Source: Verrucomicrobiota bacterium
Lineage (GTDB): Bacteria; Verrucomicrobiota; Verrucomicrobiia; Limisphaerales; JADLHS01
Reading direction: 5' to 3'
Assembly: GCA_029573725.1 (NCBI GenBank)
Contig: JAKQDQ010000181.1
Span: forward strand, 434,001 to 498,000
DNA length: 64,000 nucleotides
Of this stretch, positions 17,762 through 34,459 are shown piece after piece (within the stretch, counting starts at the first letter, position 1; the number at the start of each line of letters is the position of its first letter). Both the position numbers and the translations under genes were made by a program. Below the pieces are notes generated by a model. It saw only the letters and a list, made by a program, of their open reading frames with translations, was not told the DNA's origin and did no database searches.

Positions 17762-18245
17762 TCGCGCTCCCCGCGTATTCATCGGCCCTCGGGGTCACGT
17801 TTTTTGACTGATCCAGCGGGAGGTTTTCTGCGCACACATGCAGATGTTGAGTGGTGGCGTGCCAACCGGGAAGATTACGGCGAGAACAAGCGGTCCGGAA
17901 AAATTTCCTGGCGGGATTGTTCCGCACCCGGCGCGCGCAGGAGGTGCGGTGTCGTTTTGTTCATGTCCGGATCACGGCGGCAGAAACGGTTGACGGCTCC
18001 AACGAAACATATCGCGTGCACCAGCGCGCGGGTGGCAGCCGCAGCCATCACCATCGGATGATTTCAGCCTGGCTGCAGCGCTGCTGACGACGCCGGGGAA
18101 GCGTACGATGTCAAGGCGTGGGATTTGGAACGCCGCGGTGGCGGACTTGGGCGTCGCGCGCGGCGCCGCCGGGTCGTCGTGCTCAGCGGCCGGGTTGTTA
18201 AGCGGCCGTCCGGAAGCGGTTGTTGCCAACCATGGAGATGCCGGT
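17762..18245. other. Intergenic stretch, nothing recognised
   Basis: About 480 bp between the decayed remnant and the 3' end of moaA. No plausible gene, RNA or repeat was seen. Short open frames here lack protein-like composition. Confidence 0.4.
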
Positions 18246-22036: not shown

Positions 22037-22819
22037 TCATTTACCGGTTAGAAAGAGTTTTGCGGAAACGATCCACAGCACGATTGCCAGGGTCCGGCGA
22101 AAAACCAGCGGCCGCCAGCGCTTCACGCCATAGTACGTGCCCAGCAAGGCGCCCATGGCTCCCAACGTGACGGCACTGATGAAGAACGGGTGCCAGATCA
22201 AGGCCCCGGCCCCGAGACCGGCCAGACCGGCGCTGGAGGTGACCACGATGAACAGCGCGGAAACGCCGCCCGCCACCTTGGCGGGGGCCCACTGGAGGAA
22301 AATCAGCAGCGGTGTCAGAAACACCCCTCCACCGAGCCCCGTGACGCCCGCCAGAAACCCGAGACCGCCACCGGTCGCCAGCGCGACTGGCAACGCAATG
22401 GGGCGGGGCTGGTCTTCGGCGGTTTCCCGCCCGCCCCAACCCAGAAACCACCCTGCGGTAAAGAGGGCACCACCCAGGGTGTAAGCGTAGCCGCGACCTT
22501 CCAGATGCAGGCGGCTGCCCAACCAGGCCGCGGGAATCGAGACCACGGCGAGCGACCAGAAGATTTTGCGATCGAAAAAACCCGCGCGACTGAAGCGGAA
22601 AAAGGCGATGCCGGCGACGATACAATTCAACCACAACGCGCCGGGGCGGGCCACGGCAGGGGGGAAACCCAGCAATGCGGCTGCCGCCAGATAGCCGGTC
22701 GCCCCGCCGTGGCCCACCGAGGAATATAGAAACGCGATCAGGCCAACCACTGCCGGCAGAACGAGCATCTGGATGTGCGTCGGTTCGCTCATGTCCTCCA
22801 TCGTGGTCGCGTCACCCAT
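22037..22819 (-). CDS. TSUP (TauE/SafE) family membrane anion exporter
   Basis: 260 residues with about eight hydrophobic segments. The two family repeats are visible: SSVGHGGATGYLAAAALLGF near the N terminus and LGFLAGVTGLGGGVFLTPLL in the middle. Members move sulfite, sulfonates, thiosulfate or other small anions across the inner membrane. Start could also be the Met at 22792. It sits between the Crp/Fnr regulator and moaD in a molybdoenzyme cluster, suggesting it handles the anionic substrate or product of the oxidoreductase, but that is inference. Confidence 0.88.
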   Translation of the reverse strand: MGDATTMEDMSEPTHIQMLVLPAVVGLIAFLYSSVGHGGATGYLAAAALLGFPPAVARPGALWLNCIVAGIAFFRFSRAGFFDRKIFWSLAVVSIPAAWLGSRLHLEGRGYAYTLGGALFTAGWFLGWGGRETAEDQPRPIALPVALATGGGLGFLAGVTGLGGGVFLTPLLIFLQWAPAKVAGGVSALFIVVTSSAGLAGLGAGALIWHPFFISAVTLGAMGALLGTYYGVKRWRPLVFRRTLAIVLWIVSAKLFLTGK

Positions 22820-22897: not shown

Positions 22898-23614
22898 TCA
22901 TTCGCCCAGGTTGCGCCGCAGCAGCGCGTTCAATTTTGCCGGGGCCAGCACCGTGATGGTTGCGCCTTTGACGGACACCAGGCGCAGTTCCCGGAACTTG
23001 GCCAGCGTACGTGAAAAGGTTTCGCTGACCGTGCCCAGTTCCGCCGCCAGCACGCGTTTTGCCATGGGCAGCTGGATGGGCACTGGCTGGAGGTCCTCGC
23101 GGTCGGGGCATCGTTTTACGAGCCAGTTGGCCAGGCGCGTTTCGACATCCTTCATGGTCAGATCCTCCAGCTGGCCGACCAGCACGCGCAAATGACCGCT
23201 CATCGCGCCCAGCATGCGCAGCGCGAGGGTGGGTTGCTGTTTCAGCAGGGCGATGATTCCGGCCTTTTGCACCAGCACCACTTGAGATTGTTCGAGCGCC
23301 CGGGCGTCGGCGGGATAACCCTGCTCCGAGGCGAGCGACACTTCGGCAAAGGATTCGCCGGGGCGGAAAACGTGAATGATCTGTTCCTTGCCGGTCGCAC
23401 TGACGCGATGCACGTTGATGGCGCCGGTCTGCACGACGTAGAATCCGTGCGCGGGTGTGCCTTCGCGGAACAGATACTCGCCTTTGCGCAGCGCCTTGAT
23501 CGTGGAAACTGCGGCCACGCTCTGCAGATCGGTCAGGGGCAGTCCGGTAAAGAGTTGACAGCTCCGCAACACGTTCACGAGCGCCAGGGTCTTGAGTTCG
23601 GTCAGGGCGGTCAT
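22898..23614 (-). CDS. Crp/Fnr family transcriptional regulator (Dnr-like)
   Basis: 238 residues. The N-terminal cyclic-nucleotide-binding-type barrel spans ~15-135 (LFREGTPAHGFYVVQTGAIN, FRPGESFAEVSLASE). A dimerisation helix and winged HTH follow. The recognition helix reads LGTVSETFSRTLAKF, with the E-x-x-S-R arrangement that FNR uses to contact TTGAT. It lacks the N-terminal cysteine cluster of FNR, with only one Cys before residue 25, so it is probably not an oxygen-sensing Fe-S protein and is more like Dnr/NnrR regulators of nitrogen-oxide respiration. It overlaps the DUF2249 gene by 4 bp. A matching site lies upstream of the oxidoreductase operon at 34446-34459. Confidence 0.9.
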   Translation of the reverse strand: MTALTELKTLALVNVLRSCQLFTGLPLTDLQSVAAVSTIKALRKGEYLFREGTPAHGFYVVQTGAINVHRVSATGKEQIIHVFRPGESFAEVSLASEQGYPADARALEQSQVVLVQKAGIIALLKQQPTLALRMLGAMSGHLRVLVGQLEDLTMKDVETRLANWLVKRCPDREDLQPVPIQLPMAKRVLAAELGTVSETFSRTLAKFRELRLVSVKGATITVLAPAKLNALLRRNLGE

Positions 23615-23892
23615 GGTCCGGCGCTCGTCTTTGTGGGGTCCGGCCAGAGATACACGCGCCAGTTCCGCCCGGCGCCACGTTCGACCCTGGAGACGAATCC
23701 TTCGCCCTGCAATTTTTCAATCAAGGGCGACGGCAGAAACGAGGCGGTGATCAACAGGCCTTCGCCGGGGCGCAGTTCCGCCACCTTGGCGAAAATGATC
23801 GCGCACGGTTCGAGGCCCATGACCTGGAACTGGTTGACGTCGAGCTTCTGGAAGCGGGCCAGCGGCGGCATATTGACGGTCAGCGGTGGCAT
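23611..23892 (-). CDS. DUF2249 family protein
   Basis: 93 residues. The pattern LDVNQFQVMGLEPCAIIFAK, followed by LRPGEGLLITASFLPSPLIEKL and a C-terminal WRVYLWPD strand, matches the DUF2249 family, a TusA-like alpha/beta sandwich often found beside Crp/Fnr regulators and genes for denitrification or haem-copper oxidases. Biochemical function is unknown. It overlaps the regulator start by the ATGA pattern, so the two are co-expressed. About 260 bp separate it from mobA upstream, room for an internal promoter, but none is clear. Confidence 0.8.
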   Translation of the reverse strand: MPPLTVNMPPLARFQKLDVNQFQVMGLEPCAIIFAKVAELRPGEGLLITASFLPSPLIEKLQGEGFVSRVERGAGRNWRVYLWPDPTKTSAGP

Positions 23893-26175: not shown

Positions 26176-27244
26176 TCAGGCAGTGGGGGTTCGCGCGCCG
26201 GGCGGCAGATCCCGGAGGCCGCACGAGTCACACAAGCGGTCGGCGGATTCGTCCACGGGGCGCAACAATAAATCCTCGCTCCCGGGCGACACGCCAAAGC
26301 GCGCACATTCGGTCTCGACGAAAGTGCGGGTGAATCCGGCGAGTGCACGCAGGACGGGTTCGGTGGTGGTGGCGGCCAGGCGTCGGGTGAAGGCCGGCGT
26401 CCAGCGGCCGAGATGCTCCCGCAGGAATTTTTTTTGCGCGTCCCGGCCTTGTGCCAGCTGCTCAACCTCGAGTTGGTGGGCCAAAGCGTAGGCTTCCTTG
26501 GCTGTCAGTACGCACATGAATTCGAGTTCGAGGCAGAGGTGATCGTGTCGTTCCCCCGCGTCAGCGGCGACTTCGAGGCCGAACGCGCGATAAAACGCGG
26601 CCAGGTCGGCGAGGCGATGCGGCTGAAACAGTGGGTCGGCCTTGATGTCGCCGTATTCGATTTCGTTCAACGGACAGCCGCCGCGCGCCGCGTGGCCGAA
26701 CGTGGCGATGTAGGCGTCACGAAATCCCGCAGCGGCGTCCCGGCAGAGCGCCGCGGTTAGGGATTGAAGCGAGCTTTCCAGCGAGGCGGTTGAGTGGGCG
26801 ACACGCTGCCGAGACGCCGCTACGACGCGTACTGCCGTACTCAGGTTTTCCCGGTTGTCCTCGTTGCACAGCCAGGCCCAAGCTTCCGGCGTCGGGTCTT
26901 CGTAGGCCATGGCCAGGAAGCGGTGGATGAACGAGCGCGCCACGGCGAGGTCAATGGACGATTGGAGTGTGTCCGGACTCCTGGCACGGGCTGCCCCCTC
27001 ACCCTGACCCTCTCCCCCTCCGCGGGGGAGAGGGGACGGCAAATCGCGCTTTTCAGAAACCTTGGAGTCGCTTGTGGAAATTGCTGCCTCAACTTTGCCA
27101 GGAGCCGGCGAAGGATTCTCCCTCTCCCCTTCCGAAGGGGAGAGGGCCGGGGTGAGGGGTGAACGTGAGTCAGCGCGGTAGTTCCCAAACACCGAACGCC
27201 GGGGGGTGTCGGTCTTGGCGGCCCATTCGCCACGTAATCGAGGC

Positions 27245-27261
<17 letters not shown>
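26176..27261 (-). CDS. TorD/NarJ-like molybdoenzyme chaperone with repeat-derived N terminus
   Basis: 361 residues from MPTPSEPRLRGEW. This start overlaps the beta-subunit gene by 17 bp; a Met at 27306 is also possible. Residues ~35-90 translate the 165-bp palindromic element. From ~95 the chain is a helical chaperone of the TorD/DmsD/NarJ group, with AVARSFIHRFLAMAYEDPTP, YGDIKADPLFQP, FYRAFGLEVA and the signature ERHDHLCLELEFMCVL. The C terminus adds a CDSCG pair. Such proteins bind the catalytic subunit in the cytoplasm, check cofactor insertion and delay Tat export. The expansion is in frame, and the chaperone core appears intact. Confidence 0.8.
26995..27159. repeat. 165-bp palindromic element, copy 1, inside the TorD-like gene
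   Basis: The ends are inverted relatives: CCCCTCACCCTGACCCTC at the left and GAGAGGGCCGGGGTGAGGGG at the right. Each end also folds on itself (for example CCCTCTCCCC/GGGGAGAGGG with a short loop). The unit is exactly 55 codons, so it does not shift the frame. Its minus-strand translation begins PLTPALSPSEGERE and ends PRGGGEGQGEGA. A diverged homologue of identical length lies at 28750-28914. Confidence 0.85.
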
Positions 27262-28516
<1,255 letters not shown>

Positions 28517-28554: not shown

Positions 28555-29196
28555 TCAGACGGTGTAGTCAGGAATGGGTGCGCCGGTGGGATCGGTTAAT
28601 TCAGTGGCGTCGGTTTCCGAACCTGACGGAGCGCAGGTTTCCAAACCTGCGTGCGTCTCGACCTGCCCGCGCCTGGCCGATTTGGAAATCGGCGCTACGG
28701 CAGACTTGGAGGTCTGCGCCACGGGGGCGCTTGCCGGCCTGCCGTGCGCCCCCTCACCCTGACCCTCTCCTCCTCCACGGGGGGGAGGGGGCTGCAAAAA
28801 GGGTGTTTTTGGAAACCCGGATACGCTCATGGAACCCGCCGCCACTGATGCGCGGGGAAACGGCGAACGATTCTCCCTCTCCCCTTCCGAAGGGGAGAGG
28901 GCCGGGGTGAGGGGATTTGGCGTAACGCTCGACCACGTCACCGCTTTGCCCCAGCGCGCGAAGATTTCGGTAATGAGATCACGAATGAATGGTTCGCCGC
29001 GCTTCTCCAGCGCCATGTTCGGTCCGAGGTAATGCGGGTTGCGGAACAGCGCGAGGATTTGCTTGTGGCCATAGCCCATGCGCATGAACTCCTCGATGAA
29101 CGTCTCGGCCATGTCGTGCGTGGTGTCCTCGTGCGTCATGAACGCCATGCCGTTCAGTTCAAACGGATCTTCAAAATCAAATTCGTCTTTGGGCAT
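28555..29196 (-). CDS. Unrecognised small protein between alpha and beta subunits, repeat-expanded C terminus
   Basis: 213 residues from MPKDEFDFEDPFELNGMAF. The first ~90 residues look like a real, well-ordered alpha-helical protein (HDMAETFIEEFMRMGYGHKQ, ILALFRNPHYLGPNMALEKR, FIRDLITEIFARWGKAV), with no Cys and no signal peptide. From there on, the chain is mostly translated repeat DNA: the 165-bp element, then palindromes giving QTSKSAVAPISKSARRGQVE. A short end, DPTGAPIPDYTV, could be the original C terminus. I do not know the family. Its position between the catalytic and Fe-S subunit genes suggests a subunit or assembly factor. Upstream Met at 29244 lies within another repeat and is not used. 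Confidence 0.65.
   Translation of the reverse strand: MPKDEFDFEDPFELNGMAFMTHEDTTHDMAETFIEEFMRMGYGHKQILALFRNPHYLGPNMALEKRGEPFIRDLITEIFARWGKAVTWSSVTPNPLTPALSPSEGERENRSPFPRASVAAGSMSVSGFPKTPFLQPPPPRGGGEGQGEGAHGRPASAPVAQTSKSAVAPISKSARRGQVETHAGLETCAPSGSETDATELTDPTGAPIPDYTV
28633..28717. repeat. Cluster of three short palindromes in coding sequence
   Basis: Three spaced palindromes share a TTGGAA/TTCCAA-type centre: GCAGGTTTCCAAACCTGC (28633-28650), CCGATTTGGAAATCGG (28677-28692) and GCAGACTTGGAGGTCTGC (28700-28717). They lie in the 3' part of the small gene between alpha and beta subunits and are translated on the minus strand as TSKSAVAPISKSARRG and neighbouring residues. Confidence 0.75.
28750..28914. 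repeat. 165-bp palindromic element, copy 2, inside the small intersubunit gene
   Basis: Same length, same terminal sequences and same orientation as the copy at 26995-27159. The right ~40 bp (28875-28914) are identical to the other copy; the interior is diverged but alignable (for example GGAAAC.. and CGCT..TGGAA in register). It is translated in the same frame as copy 1, beginning PLTPALSPSEGERE and ending PRGGGEGQGEGA. Confidence 0.85.
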
Positions 29197-29210
29197 AAAA
29201 TCAAAGTTCC

Positions 29211-29319
29211 AAACTCCAAGCACCAAGCTCCAGGGAGACACCAAATCCCAAGCTCCAAATCTCCAGATCGCTTCGCCCGCTCTTGAAGTTTGGAGCTTGG
29301 ATGTTGGTGCTTGGAGTTT
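29211..29319. repeat. Long inverted repeat in the gap between alpha subunit and small gene
   Basis: A perfect 16-bp inverted pair, AAACTCCAAGCACCAA at 29211-29226 and its complement TTGGTGCTTGGAGTTT at 29304-29319, encloses further imperfect copies (CCAAGCTCCA and TTGGAGCTTGG). It would fold into a long hairpin in the transcript between the alpha-subunit stop and the next start, where it could affect relative expression or mRNA stability. Confidence 0.8.
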
Positions 29320-29324
29320 TCATT

Positions 29325-32300
29325 TCACTCAAACGTCCCGCCGCCGCCGCCCTCGCCCTTGCCGCTGAAATTGCCGGCAATGTATTTCTTCATCTTGTCG
29401 TTCTCGGCATCGGGGGCCATGCCGTTGAGGCCGGGTTTCCACGGGCCTTTGCCGCCCAGCCCGCCGTCCTCCGCCTTCGTGATGCGGATCAGACATTCCT
29501 TCGGCACGGTGTTGACGGCGTGGTTGTCCGCCTCGCCACCAAACAGGAAGCTCATATACGCCTTCGATTTGTGGAACAGCGTGTCGGTCTGGTGCATCGG
29601 CATGTGCCAGTTGCGCGTGACGGATTGCTGGGAGCCGAAACGGAAGTTCGAGATGTAGCCTTCCTCGGTGAGCGACAAGCCATCGGGGCGGGTCTGCTGC
29701 GCCTTCACGGTTTTCTCCGTCGCGATGAATGAGCCGTGTTTCATCATCACCACGTTGTAGGGATACGCGGCGTTGTAGGTGAGCCGCAGCATGAGGCGGC
29801 TGACCTTGTAGAACGGATCGCTCGGCGTCGCGCCAAGATACGGACGGTCGGCGGGGTTCGCGTCCACATAGACGTAATCGCCGTCGTTGATGCCGAGGTC
29901 GCGGGCGGCCTGCGGGTTCATGTGGATTTGGTGCTCGCCCACGTTCGGCAGGCGTTTGTCCACGCGATACGGGTCGCCGAAGTTCGAGTTCCAGATGAGA
30001 TGCCAGTCCACGTTCGCCCACGAGGAGTGGACGCTGTGGCGCGACTTGGGCGTGAGGCAGTAGAACTGGAATCCCTTCTCCCAGAGGAAATTCTTTGAGT
30101 TCTTCGTGTCCGCCCAGCTCAACTTCACGTTCCGCACGGTGCGTTCGTCCCAATGCTCGGCATCGAGCGGAATGCCGTAATCGTTCGGGCGCACGAGCGG
30201 ATTCGTGCTGACGATGACGTTGGGCAGATAGGGCGTGGCCTCCGGCCCTTCGCGATGCACGATGAAGTTTTCGCCGCAATCCAGCGCCGTCGGATCATCC
30301 GAGTAGGAGTTCATCCGACCGGTGTCCGTGTGGAACGGATAATTGTCATGCACCTGCTCATAGAACGGAATGCGCGGGTAACTGCGGAACAGCATCAATG
30401 CGCCACCGGGCGGGCCGTATTTGCCGGCCATGATGTCATCCACCTGATAGCCCGCCGTGGTGGTGCAGGTATCAAGCAGCCGCTGGAGGTAGATTTTGCG
30501 TTTGCCCTCGTGCTCGAATTTGAAATGCGTGTAGAAGCGCTTGTCACCGGTGACTTTTCCGAGCGCGGCGGCGATGCCGGCGAGAATCGAAAGGTCGTCC
30601 TTCGAATCGTAGAGCGGTTTGATGCCGCCCTTCCAGATTTGGAGGAACGGATTCGAGCAACTCGCCGTGACCTCCAAATCCTCGAACTCGACCCAGGAAT
30701 TGGCTGGCAGTCCAAAATCGGAGTACTCAACGCTGGCCGTCATCTGCGTGTCCATGGTCACGATCAACTCCACGTTCGGGTTGACGTTCTTGATCATCGC
30801 ATACGCCCACTTGGCGTTGTTGATCAGGTTGACGTTCGTGGTGAAGATCGCCTTGGTGGGCGACGGCATGTGCGACTTGCCGGTGAACACCTTGCGGCCT
30901 TCCTTGGGCGTGTTGACGATGAGCGGGCGATCGCCGTGATTCCAATACGCCGGCTCTTCATCCTTCGTGTAGGCGTGCGCGTGGACATCCCGGCCATGCG
31001 CCTTGGGGTCGAGGTTTTGCTCGAACGGGTCCTCGGCGATCCAGCCTTTGAATCCGTGGCCGGTCAGCTTGCTGCCCTGGAAGAGCGCGGCCTTGTAATT
31101 GCCTGCCCAGCCGTGACAGCCCGCACCGGGCTTGCCGATGTTGCCGGTGAGCATGAGCGGCAGATACGCGGCGCGATTCGCCTCGGTCGCGTGAAACCAG
31201 TGGTTGATGCCCTCGCCCTGGTGAATCGAGGTCGGCGTGATGGTCGCGATGTCCTGCGCCAGGCGTTCGATTAGTTCCTTTGGTGCGCTAGTGATCTCGG
31301 AAACGCTGTCGAGATCGTAATCCTTGAGGTGAACCTGATAGAGATTCCACGCCGTCGCCACCTCCGTTTCGCTGCCGTCGGCGAGTTTGACTTTGCCCTT
31401 CCAATCCAATGTCGGGTCAATGCCGCTGGCCGTCAGCGTGCCGCCGACGAGGTCACGGGTCAGCGCTTTCGGCGCATTCGACTTCGCGTCCCACACGACA
31501 AAATCTCCAAGCTTCGCGTGCTGTTCGTCGGTGATGCCCTGCACCTTCTTGCTCGGGCCGTCATCGGGCAGCTTGCTCGAATAATTTGGAAATACCTCCG
31601 CCGCGCGCAGGCGTTTGCCGTTGTCGGTGCGGACGAGCAGCGGGAAATCCGTGAACTGCTTCACGAACGATTCGTCATACCATTTCTTGTCCATCATCAA
31701 CCGCGTGACGCCGAGCCAGAGCGCCGCGTCGGTCGAGGGCCGGACGGGAATCCAGTAATCCGCCTTGGTCGAGGGCGCGCCATATTCGGGTGCGATGACC
31801 ACGATCTTGCAGCCGCGCTCCATGCACTCGATGAACCAGTGGGCATCGGCCATTTTGTTTTCCACCAGGTTCTTGCCGTTCATGATGATGAGCTTGGAAT
31901 TGCGGAGGTCGTTGAAGTCCGTTTCCGAATTCTGCAGGCCATGCACCCACGGATGGCCGGGCGCCTGGTCGCCGTGCCAGGTGTAATTCGACCACACGCG
32001 ACCGCCCTTGGCGTCCTCCGGCTTGACGCCGCGCACGTGCACGTCGAGCAGTGCGAGGGAATTGCAGAGGCGGTACATGCCATATTTGCCGAGCACACCG
32101 AGCAGGCCCATGCCGCCGCGCGTCTTGATGGTGCGCGTGCCCGCGCCGCCCATGTCCTCGATCATCTCCTTCGGGTAGCCCTGTGCTGCGAGCAGCTTCG
32201 CGCCGGCCTCGCCGCTGTAGCGGGTGGCAATTGCCTTCAACGCGCGGGCGATGTAATCAAACGCCTCGCCCCACGAGATGCGATCGAACTTGTCCGTGCC

Positions 32301-32804
32301 GCGCGCGTCGAACTTGTATTTCGCCTTCACCTGATCGGTCAGGTTGGGAAATCCGTCGTCGGCCCAGCGTTTCCAGCCGCGCCGCACGATGGGGTGCTTG
32401 AGGCGGTACGGACCGTACAGGATGCGATGGAAGGTATAGCCCTTGGCGCAGTGCCGGTTGCCCCAGTTGGCGGTGGCGTGCTTGCCGTAAAGATCGGAGT
32501 AGGTGTGAACGTCGTATTGCTCGCCGAGCCGGACGATGACCCCGTTGCGGACGTGGGCGGTCACCCGGCAGTTGTGGGTGTCGTTCGGCGCGCAGACCCA
32601 GGAGAACTCATGGTCGTAGGCGTATTGATTGCGGTAGAGCTGCTCCCAATCGCGACGCGGGTAGGTGGCGAGAGGATTGGGCACGTCCTCGATTTGCGGC
32701 TGGGCCTGGAGGAAGCGCAGCGGGAGAAACTGGGCGGCGGTGATGCCGGCGCCGACGAGACCGCTCGCTTTGATGAAGGAGCGACGGGAAAGATTGTCGT
32801 TCAT
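29325..32804 (-). CDS. Molybdopterin catalytic (alpha) subunit, NxrA-like, Tat-exported
   Basis: 1159 residues. A Tat signal (LSRRSFIKASG) with hydrophobic stretch leads to a periplasmic protein of the type II DMSO reductase family. H65, C71, C79 and C119 match the FS0 cluster pattern. YTWHGDQAPGHPWVHGLQ supplies the candidate Mo-ligand Asp (D279), the feature separating this family from Ser or Cys types. Segments such as LIIMNGKNLVENKMADAHWF and APSTKADYWIPVRPSTDAAL closely recall NxrA of Nitrospira/anammox organisms. Nitrite oxidation, nitrate reduction or another oxyanion substrate are all possible; sequence alone does not decide. Cofactor would be bis-MGD, supplied by the adjoining genes. 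Confidence 0.92.
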   Translation of the reverse strand: MNDNLSRRSFIKASGLVGAGITAAQFLPLRFLQAQPQIEDVPNPLATYPRRDWEQLYRNQYAYDHEFSWVCAPNDTHNCRVTAHVRNGVIVRLGEQYDVHTYSDLYGKHATANWGNRHCAKGYTFHRILYGPYRLKHPIVRRGWKRWADDGFPNLTDQVKAKYKFDARGTDKFDRISWGEAFDYIARALKAIATRYSGEAGAKLLAAQGYPKEMIEDMGGAGTRTIKTRGGMGLLGVLGKYGMYRLCNSLALLDVHVRGVKPEDAKGGRVWSNYTWHGDQAPGHPWVHGLQNSETDFNDLRNSKLIIMNGKNLVENKMADAHWFIECMERGCKIVVIAPEYGAPSTKADYWIPVRPSTDAALWLGVTRLMMDKKWYDESFVKQFTDFPLLVRTDNGKRLRAAEVFPNYSSKLPDDGPSKKVQGITDEQHAKLGDFVVWDAKSNAPKALTRDLVGGTLTASGIDPTLDWKGKVKLADGSETEVATAWNLYQVHLKDYDLDSVSEITSAPKELIERLAQDIATITPTSIHQGEGINHWFHATEANRAAYLPLMLTGNIGKPGAGCHGWAGNYKAALFQGSKLTGHGFKGWIAEDPFEQNLDPKAHGRDVHAHAYTKDEEPAYWNHGDRPLIVNTPKEGRKVFTGKSHMPSPTKAIFTTNVNLINNAKWAYAMIKNVNPNVELIVTMDTQMTASVEYSDFGLPANSWVEFEDLEVTASCSNPFLQIWKGGIKPLYDSKDDLSILAGIAAALGKVTGDKRFYTHFKFEHEGKRKIYLQRLLDTCTTTAGYQVDDIMAGKYGPPGGALMLFRSYPRIPFYEQVHDNYPFHTDTGRMNSYSDDPTALDCGENFIVHREGPEATPYLPNVIVSTNPLVRPNDYGIPLDAEHWDERTVRNVKLSWADTKNSKNFLWEKGFQFYCLTPKSRHSVHSSWANVDWHLIWNSNFGDPYRVDKRLPNVGEHQIHMNPQAARDLGINDGDYVYVDANPADRPYLGATPSDPFYKVSRLMLRLTYNAAYPYNVVMMKHGSFIATEKTVKAQQTRPDGLSLTEEGYISNFRFGSQQSVTRNWHMPMHQTDTLFHKSKAYMSFLFGGEADNHAVNTVPKECLIRITKAEDGGLGGKGPWKPGLNGMAPDAENDKMKKYIAGNFSGKGEGGGGGTFE

Positions 32805-32839: not shown

Positions 32840-34402
32840 TCAGCGTTTGGCCGTCTTGCCGTCGTCGAGGATGAGTTGATACCAGTTGCTGATCATCTTG
32901 CGGCCGTTGCGGTCCCGCTGCTCGCCGTTCCAGATGGCGAAGGCGACCGGTACCGCTTTGCCGGGACTGAACTTCACGTCGCCGCTGTCCTTGGACTTGA
33001 GGTCGCGGACGAAGAACACGCTCCAGAATCCGTCATGCCAGACGCCCTTGCCGGCGACGTTCTGTTCCTTGAGCGGTTGCGACTTGAACGAGCCGAAGCC
33101 CGCCGCGTTGGCGTCCTCGACGGGAGACTTGTGCGGTTGCGAAGTGACGTTGCCGGCGGCGTGAGCGGTGCTGTAATTGGTAAACGTCCAGGCATCGGTA
33201 TGCATGGAGTGGTAAACGGAATCCATGTCCGGCACACCGCCACCCTCGGCTTCGGCCTGCCAGCCGGCCTTCCAGCTCCAGAGGTTGACCGGGTTGTCCT
33301 TGTCGCCCATGCCGAGGAAACCGTATTTGCCTGACAGCGAAAACTGGAGCGCCGCGCCATCCTGAAAGTCCTGCACGCGAATGGCGGAGTTCTGCGGCAA
33401 CTCGTCGCGCCATTGCAGCAGCACGGCGAGTTTCTTTCCATCCGTCACCGCCGAAACCGCCACGGCGTACACTTGATTCGGCTCGGGCCAGAGCGGATTC
33501 AACGGCACGCGGACGGGATCGAGCGACTCCCAGAAATTGTCCATCGGGCCGGTGGGGATGGTTTTGACACGATGCACCCGGATGGCGCTGTCCTCGGGTG
33601 CGAGCAAATCGTTCACCGAAACATCCGTGCGCCGCAGCGATTGGATGTAATGGACCAGCGCCCAGCGTTCCGCGGGGGTCATCACGTCGTCTCCGTACGG
33701 AATCATCGGCGTGCCGGGAAGGCCGTTGTGGATGCGCAAATAGAGATCCCGGCCGGTGTGGCCGCCGCGAAAGAGTTCGGTGTTGAAGTCGCGCGGGCGC
33801 ACTGGAATTCCGCTGGCATCCTTGAGAGTGGGCACCTGCGGACCGTCGCCGGCACCGGTTTCGCCATGACACAAATCGCATTGCATGCGCTTGTAGGTGT
33901 CACGTCCCCGGACGAGTTCCTGCACTCCCGCCGCCGGCTCTGGTGGGACGGCCACCGGTTCGGTCCGCGTGCCGCTGGCGGCCGCCGCTTCAAACAGATT
34001 CACCCGTTGACCGTCGGCAAGCGTCCGTACTGTGAGGTGCTTCACATATTGCACCACCGCGTTGCGCTCGGACTCGGGCAGGTAGGAAAAACCTGGCATC
34101 GAACTGCCCGGCAGCCCGCGCGTGACGGATTGAAGCAGATCGTGATCAGTGGGCAGAGCCTGCCCCGGGGTGGATTTGATTTTAAATTGTCCGGCGCTGA
34201 AGTTGCGCGGCTTCGGATAGAGCCAAACCGAGGCCGGACCATCGCCCGCGCCCTCAGCCCCGTGACAGGCGGCACAGTGCAGTTCGTAAACGACCTTGCC
34301 ATCGGGGGGAGCGGCGGAGGATTCGGTGGGGGCCGCCCGGCCGGGTGGGGATGGCGACAGCAGCACAATCAGGCCAAAATGCAAGATGATAGGCTTCTTC
34401 AT
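32840..34402 (-). CDS. Di-haem c/haem b electron-transfer subunit (NxrC/gamma-like)
   Basis: 520 residues from MKKPIILHFG, preceded by AGAGG 5 bp upstream; a longer frame to 34558 is not used. A signal peptide ends near RAAP. Two cytochrome c domains carry CAACH (C43-H47) and CDLCH (C175-H179), each followed by GAGDGP. From ~270 the chain matches the ethylbenzene-dehydrogenase/gamma-subunit haem-b domain (LLQWRDELPQ, DGAALQFSLSG, LWSWKAGWQAEAEGG, KGVWHDGFWSVFFVRDL). Fusing the haem-b gamma domain to two c-type domains would wire the Mo/Fe-S enzyme directly to a periplasmic acceptor. First gene of the cluster, 35 bp before the alpha subunit. Confidence 0.88.
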   Translation of the reverse strand: MKKPIILHFGLIVLLSPSPPGRAAPTESSAAPPDGKVVYELHCAACHGAEGAGDGPASVWLYPKPRNFSAGQFKIKSTPGQALPTDHDLLQSVTRGLPGSSMPGFSYLPESERNAVVQYVKHLTVRTLADGQRVNLFEAAAASGTRTEPVAVPPEPAAGVQELVRGRDTYKRMQCDLCHGETGAGDGPQVPTLKDASGIPVRPRDFNTELFRGGHTGRDLYLRIHNGLPGTPMIPYGDDVMTPAERWALVHYIQSLRRTDVSVNDLLAPEDSAIRVHRVKTIPTGPMDNFWESLDPVRVPLNPLWPEPNQVYAVAVSAVTDGKKLAVLLQWRDELPQNSAIRVQDFQDGAALQFSLSGKYGFLGMGDKDNPVNLWSWKAGWQAEAEGGGVPDMDSVYHSMHTDAWTFTNYSTAHAAGNVTSQPHKSPVEDANAAGFGSFKSQPLKEQNVAGKGVWHDGFWSVFFVRDLKSKDSGDVKFSPGKAVPVAFAIWNGEQRDRNGRKMISNWYQLILDDGKTAKR

Positions 34403-34445
34403 ATACGCCTCTAAAATTAGAATAACTGCTGTCGAGGTGAATACT

Positions 34446-34459
34446 TTGACTTGGATCAA
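34446..34459 (-). promoter_or_regulatory. FNR/DNR-type box upstream of the oxidoreductase operon
   Basis: The minus strand reads TTGATCCAAGTCAA, a TTGAT-N4-ATCAA site with one mismatch. A -10-like TATTCT lies at 34419-34424 in nearly the spacing of a class II site (box centre near -40). The SD AGAGG and ATG follow closely, so the leader would be only about 10 nt. The Crp/Fnr regulator encoded at 22898-23614 has the ExxSR helix that reads TTGAT. Confidence 0.65.

Follow-up and report, generated by a model that had tools for sequence, protein, structure and literature searches.

A probable DNR/FNR-type class II operator, conserved across Limisphaerales, upstream of an operon for a nitrite oxidoreductase-type enzyme

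The palindrome TTGATCCAAGTCAA on the minus strand of the window (the whole 64-kb stretch of DNA that was analysed) is, judging from the sequence, very probably a class II site through which a DNR-like Crp/Fnr protein, or its close paralogue, switches on an operon of the nitrite oxidoreductase (NXR) type together with a small nitrogen-oxide regulon. The circuit predicted here is of a well-known general kind, a DNR/FNR class II regulon, and that assignment is well supported by comparison; what is new is the stable link of a DNR/FNR-type box to NXR-type operons across the order Limisphaerales (Verrucomicrobiota). In the literature searched we found no FNR/DNR control of nxr for this phylum and, in the comparison with Kuenenia, no FNR-type control of nxr; an Fnr upstream of nirK has been mentioned in Nitrospira (PMC5596200).

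The genes given below with coordinates all lie on the minus strand. The first gene (32840..34402) encodes a fusion protein, with a diheme-type cytochrome c part at the N-terminus and, behind it, a heme b domain like that of NXR-C and the ethylbenzene dehydrogenase gamma subunit (PF00034, PF09459; 7b04_C, 6h5l_B). It is followed by an NxrA-type molybdopterin catalytic subunit (29325..32804) with a Tat signal, matching the Kuenenia A subunit (7b04_B) over its whole length with 1724 bits (residues 5-1145), a small ORF of no recognised family whose start is uncertain (28555..29244), the NxrB-type iron-sulphur subunit (27245..28516; 7b04_A, 599 bits) and a TorD/NarJ-type chaperone (26176..26925, start uncertain as the ORF is open to 27306; PF02613, TIGR03482). 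A DUF2249 gene (23611..23892; PF10006), whose stop codon and the start codon of crp, the regulator gene, share the letters ATGA, crp itself (22898..23614) and a gene for a TauE/SafE exporter (22037..22819), homologues of which have their own class II boxes in two relatives (G187 and G004), come next, and genes for Moco lie farther down the cluster, as seen by ORF inspection. The A, B and C parts of the operon all match the nitrite oxidoreductase of Kuenenia stuttgartiensis (7b04), and the catalytic subunit has the FS0 ligand pattern C-x3-D-x3-C plus a later Cys (C/D/C/C; ligand numbering from PMC8387239); with these three subunits and the Tat signal, the predicted product is an NXR-type enzyme (nitrite oxidoreductase/nitrate reductase) of the periplasmic kind. 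The window protein differs from the Kuenenia enzyme in the extra N-terminal cytochrome c part of its C subunit, a part that resembles the Kuenenia chain 6h5l_B. Since the reaction of the Kuenenia enzyme runs both ways (PMC8387239), the enzyme of the window may work in either direction in the cell. We also observed that LTPALSPSEGERE and PRGGGEGQGEG are encoded both in the ORF at 26176-27306 and in that at 28555-29244; these stretches resemble dispersed DNA repeats translated through as protein.

Upstream of the first gene, the minus strand reads TTGATCCAAGTCAA-agtattcacctcgacagcagt-TATTCT-aattttagaggcgtat-ATG. The operator (34446..34459) lies 43 nt ahead of the ATG (34402-34400), and 21 bp downstream of it stands the -10-like hexamer TATTCT (34419..34424), from which a transcription start at 34411..34414 is predicted by spacing (about 6-8 nt past the -10). 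Centred at -41.5 with a typical start point, a class II site would give a spacer of 22 bp, so that the measured 21 bp agrees with the "near class II" spacing claimed in the first-pass annotation; sites in E. coli have been accepted as class II within 4 nt (PMC3688515). Thus the operator lies near -41.5 relative to a start point predicted from spacing, with a -10 at 21-22 bp, as it does at the FNR class II promoters of E. coli (narGHJI, dmsABC, nirBDC), two of which (narG, dmsA) likewise front operons for molybdoenzymes of the same superfamily. The window promoter would depart from these in its very short leader, of only about 9-12 nt from the predicted start.

Within the window, TTGAY-N4-RTCAA is matched in full (10/10) by the operator alone. 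The whole genome was examined by pattern search, and the sites were then read in stretches: there are 27 perfect sites compared with 11 for the reversed pattern, the exact 14-mer occurs only twice, and a perfect box followed by TAnnnT at 21-22 bp occurs once, at the operator itself (34459-34446). Many of the other perfect boxes inspected fall within reading frames and are probably chance occurrences. By the reversed control, about 11 perfect boxes per genome arise by chance, and on this count the operator could be a fortuitous palindrome in an unregulated intergenic stretch, a reading that we consider virtually negligible and reject, as it is contradicted by the spacing, by the co-occurrence with the regulator (below) and, above all, by conservation across the order: a perfect box is found within 400 bp upstream in 24 of the 27 orthologous operons (about 0.3 expected).

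These 27 operons come from those genomes of the order that gave convincing scores for an orthologue of the first gene. The remainder of the same loci (108 kb) contains only 3 perfect boxes. TAnnnT follows the box at a gap of 21 in 4 and of 22 in 8 of the 24 loci, with no other tested gap represented more than once, in line with a -10 at the place of TATTCT. The DNA flanking the boxes shows 27-32% pairwise identity, which is near random, and the orthologous loci are therefore not merely recent copies of one another; identity within the box is high by selection and was left out as evidence. Two boxes are imperfect (9/10 in G221, and just 8/10 in G100, itself a partial match), and in G041 (96% complete) the operon is present whereas both box and regulator are absent. 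In the sample of the phylum outside the order, the first gene had just a single distant homologue (36% identical), which lacked a box, and the association of box and operon thus belongs to this order. At position 5 of the left half the clade has C in 17 and T in 7 boxes, and the right half takes both A and G. The first-pass annotation had described the operator as an FNR/DNR box with one mismatch; the box stands, while the presumed mismatch (G for A in the right half) falls away, because both letters occur there in the clade.

The distance from box to ATG is 32-38 nt in nearly all orthologues, as compared with 43 in the window (in L064, L066 and L071 the start was set by eye, with an ATG at about 35-37). 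Assuming a start 6-8 nt past the -10, the leader of most orthologue messages would be 0-5 nt long, and the nearly fixed distance (window 32840-34402, L048-L072) implies almost leaderless messages across the order.

The regulator gene of the cluster (22898..23614) encodes a Crp/Fnr protein (PF00027, PF13545) whose nearest solved structure is DNR of Pseudomonas aeruginosa (3dkw, E 2.5e-26, 96 bits), far ahead of all others (FNR, 4e-14). The protein had been described as having an ExxSR recognition helix and no Fe-S cysteines, and this is borne out by the helix ETFSR and by a total of just two cysteines, C19 and C169; it is predicted to be unable to bind an FNR-type cluster. It shares with P. aeruginosa DNR the Crp/Fnr fold without Fe-S cysteines and the ETFSR helix, and with the nir/nor/nos regulon of DNR an operator of the type TTGAY-N4-RTCAA and nor genes as targets; an ExxSR helix, DNR as the nearest structure and an FNR-like operator ahead of nitrogen-oxide genes together make it a probable member of the DNR type. 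It differs in being a verrucomicrobial protein of only about 96 bits similarity, with an NXR-type operon as predicted target, and in its sensor region: C19 aligns opposite His14 of DNR in the structure-match alignment, so DNR-like heme NO sensing cannot be assumed and the sensor may differ from that of DNR. C19, H69, H141 and C169 are invariant among 37 homologues, in which the ETFSR helix is almost invariant.

In other bacteria FNR and DNR boxes are indistinguishable (PMC5398030), and the operator might be read by an oxygen-sensing Fe-S FNR, or be a repressor site. We regard either as very unlikely: FNR uses a 4Fe-4S cluster, a search with HTH_Crp_2 revealed only two Crp-type proteins in the genome, both DNR-like and neither with the FNR cysteine set, and the class II position is that of an activator (19 of 23 activated promoters in E. 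coli; PMC3688515). A third, weak HTH match (L005, C87) is by sequence a DeoR-type repressor and not a Crp protein.

The preference of the clade for a TTGAC left half raises the further question of whether the regulator is of the HcpR rather than the DNR type. HcpR (delta-proteobacteria, Porphyromonas) is likewise a nitrogen-oxide-responsive Crp/Fnr protein, and such a left half has been reported for its delta-proteobacterial operator (consensus TTGACnnnnGTCAA, compared with TTGATnnnnATCAA for proteobacterial DNR; PMC1274295). The operator letters fit the HcpR consensus in part, the clade using both T and C. HcpR targets hcp; in the loci read here the targets seen are nxr, nor and DUF2249 genes, with no hcp gene among them, and among solved structures DNR is well ahead. 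An HcpR-type protein is judged unlikely, and the DNR type is preferred.

The second Crp-type protein of the genome is a paralogue encoded at C149:58249-58959 (62% identical), and its recognition helix, ETLSR, is nearly the same, so that this protein could be the main binder of the operator and the Crp protein of the cluster could have other targets. This assignment is improbable: it is the cluster type, not the C149 type, that neighbours the operon in relatives, and the cluster-type helix hardly varies among 34 homologues. The gene for the cluster-type regulator adjoins the first operon gene, directly upstream, in three genomes (G010, G011 and G174) and lies inside the cluster in three (G036, G109 and the genome of the window, G000).

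The cluster-type regulator, our preferred binder, is also tied to the box by its distribution. Of the 245 genomes of the order, 104 encode a homologue; among the 27 that bear the operon, 26 do so, the exception being G041. In the 104 genomes with the regulator, class II sites outnumber the reversed control 15-fold (347 vs 23), compared with 2-fold (81 vs 40) in the 141 genomes without it; within families the contrast goes in the same direction (higher in 15 and lower in 1 of 20 mixed families; none of 5000 permutations as extreme), and as the genomes are related, these figures describe an association and not independent events. Given the twofold enrichment without the regulator, other proteins may use similar boxes. 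With DNR as its nearest structure and box abundance following the regulator across the order, the first-pass proposal that the operon is controlled from an FNR/DNR-type class II site, to which the Crp/Fnr protein of the cluster probably binds, gains support.

The suggestion that the regulator also controls itself through a box of its own found no support: no box lies within 350 bp upstream of the window crp, and just 3 of 37 homologues have a perfect box before them. With its start inside the end of the DUF2249 gene, and in the same orientation as the operon, crp could be reached indirectly, by read-through of the cluster. In several relatives (L036-L042, L081, L083, L092, L095) a perfect box is located about 730-1020 bp after the start of crp, preceding the next gene, which in two cases is the nxr operon.

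A search for the same box elsewhere in the genome, as had been proposed, found the second identical copy of the 14-mer ahead of norC-norB, about 350 bp before the first ORF; the NorB identity of this locus was confirmed. Perfect boxes also precede a DUF2249/TusA-domain gene (C73:398019), a second DUF2249 gene (C30:1057; 34 nt before the ATG) and a hemerythrin-domain gene (C30:11382). In relatives, class II sites precede genes for a norC-like cytochrome, DUF2249 proteins, TauE, a molybdopterin Fe4S4-domain protein resembling NapA, and others, several of these names resting on fragments and on reading of the sequence. Near norC-norB (L021:736-2637) we noted an NnrS-like gene (weak match) and a gene for an Rrf2-family regulator, because of which a second NO-type control may exist there. 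Beyond each of two boxes on contig C73 (L020:14545-14620 and 18019-18095; G000:C73:394545 and 398019) the same ATTGACATCC stands 28-29 nt farther on, with TAGTCT or TACGCT 16 nt after the TTGACA, and these may be class I promoters whose operator would lie near -72.

We propose that a dimer of the DNR-like Crp/Fnr protein of the cluster (or of its paralogue) would bind TTGATCCAAGTCAA, whose centre lies some 40-41 bp upstream of the predicted start, and would recruit RNA polymerase to the TATTCT promoter, acting as an activator rather than a repressor. The NXR-type operon would thereby be turned on together with norC-norB, the DUF2249 genes and a hemerythrin. The make-up of the regulon leads us to guess at nitrogen oxide/NO under low oxygen as the most likely signal. 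More tentatively, and with rather less than even confidence, we suggest a regulon common to Limisphaerales: a DNR-like regulator whose sensor site differs (the invariant C19, H69, H141 and C169) would drive NXR-type enzymes for nitrogen-oxide respiration, from promoters that yield nearly leaderless messages.

Because the enzyme can work in either direction, it is difficult to say what NXR-type genes do in uncultured bacteria. A DNR-type control in common with NO reductase argues for nitrogen-oxide respiration over aerobic nitrite oxidation in Limisphaerales, and the short promoter fragment and the regulator provide a handle for testing the role of NXR in these bacteria.
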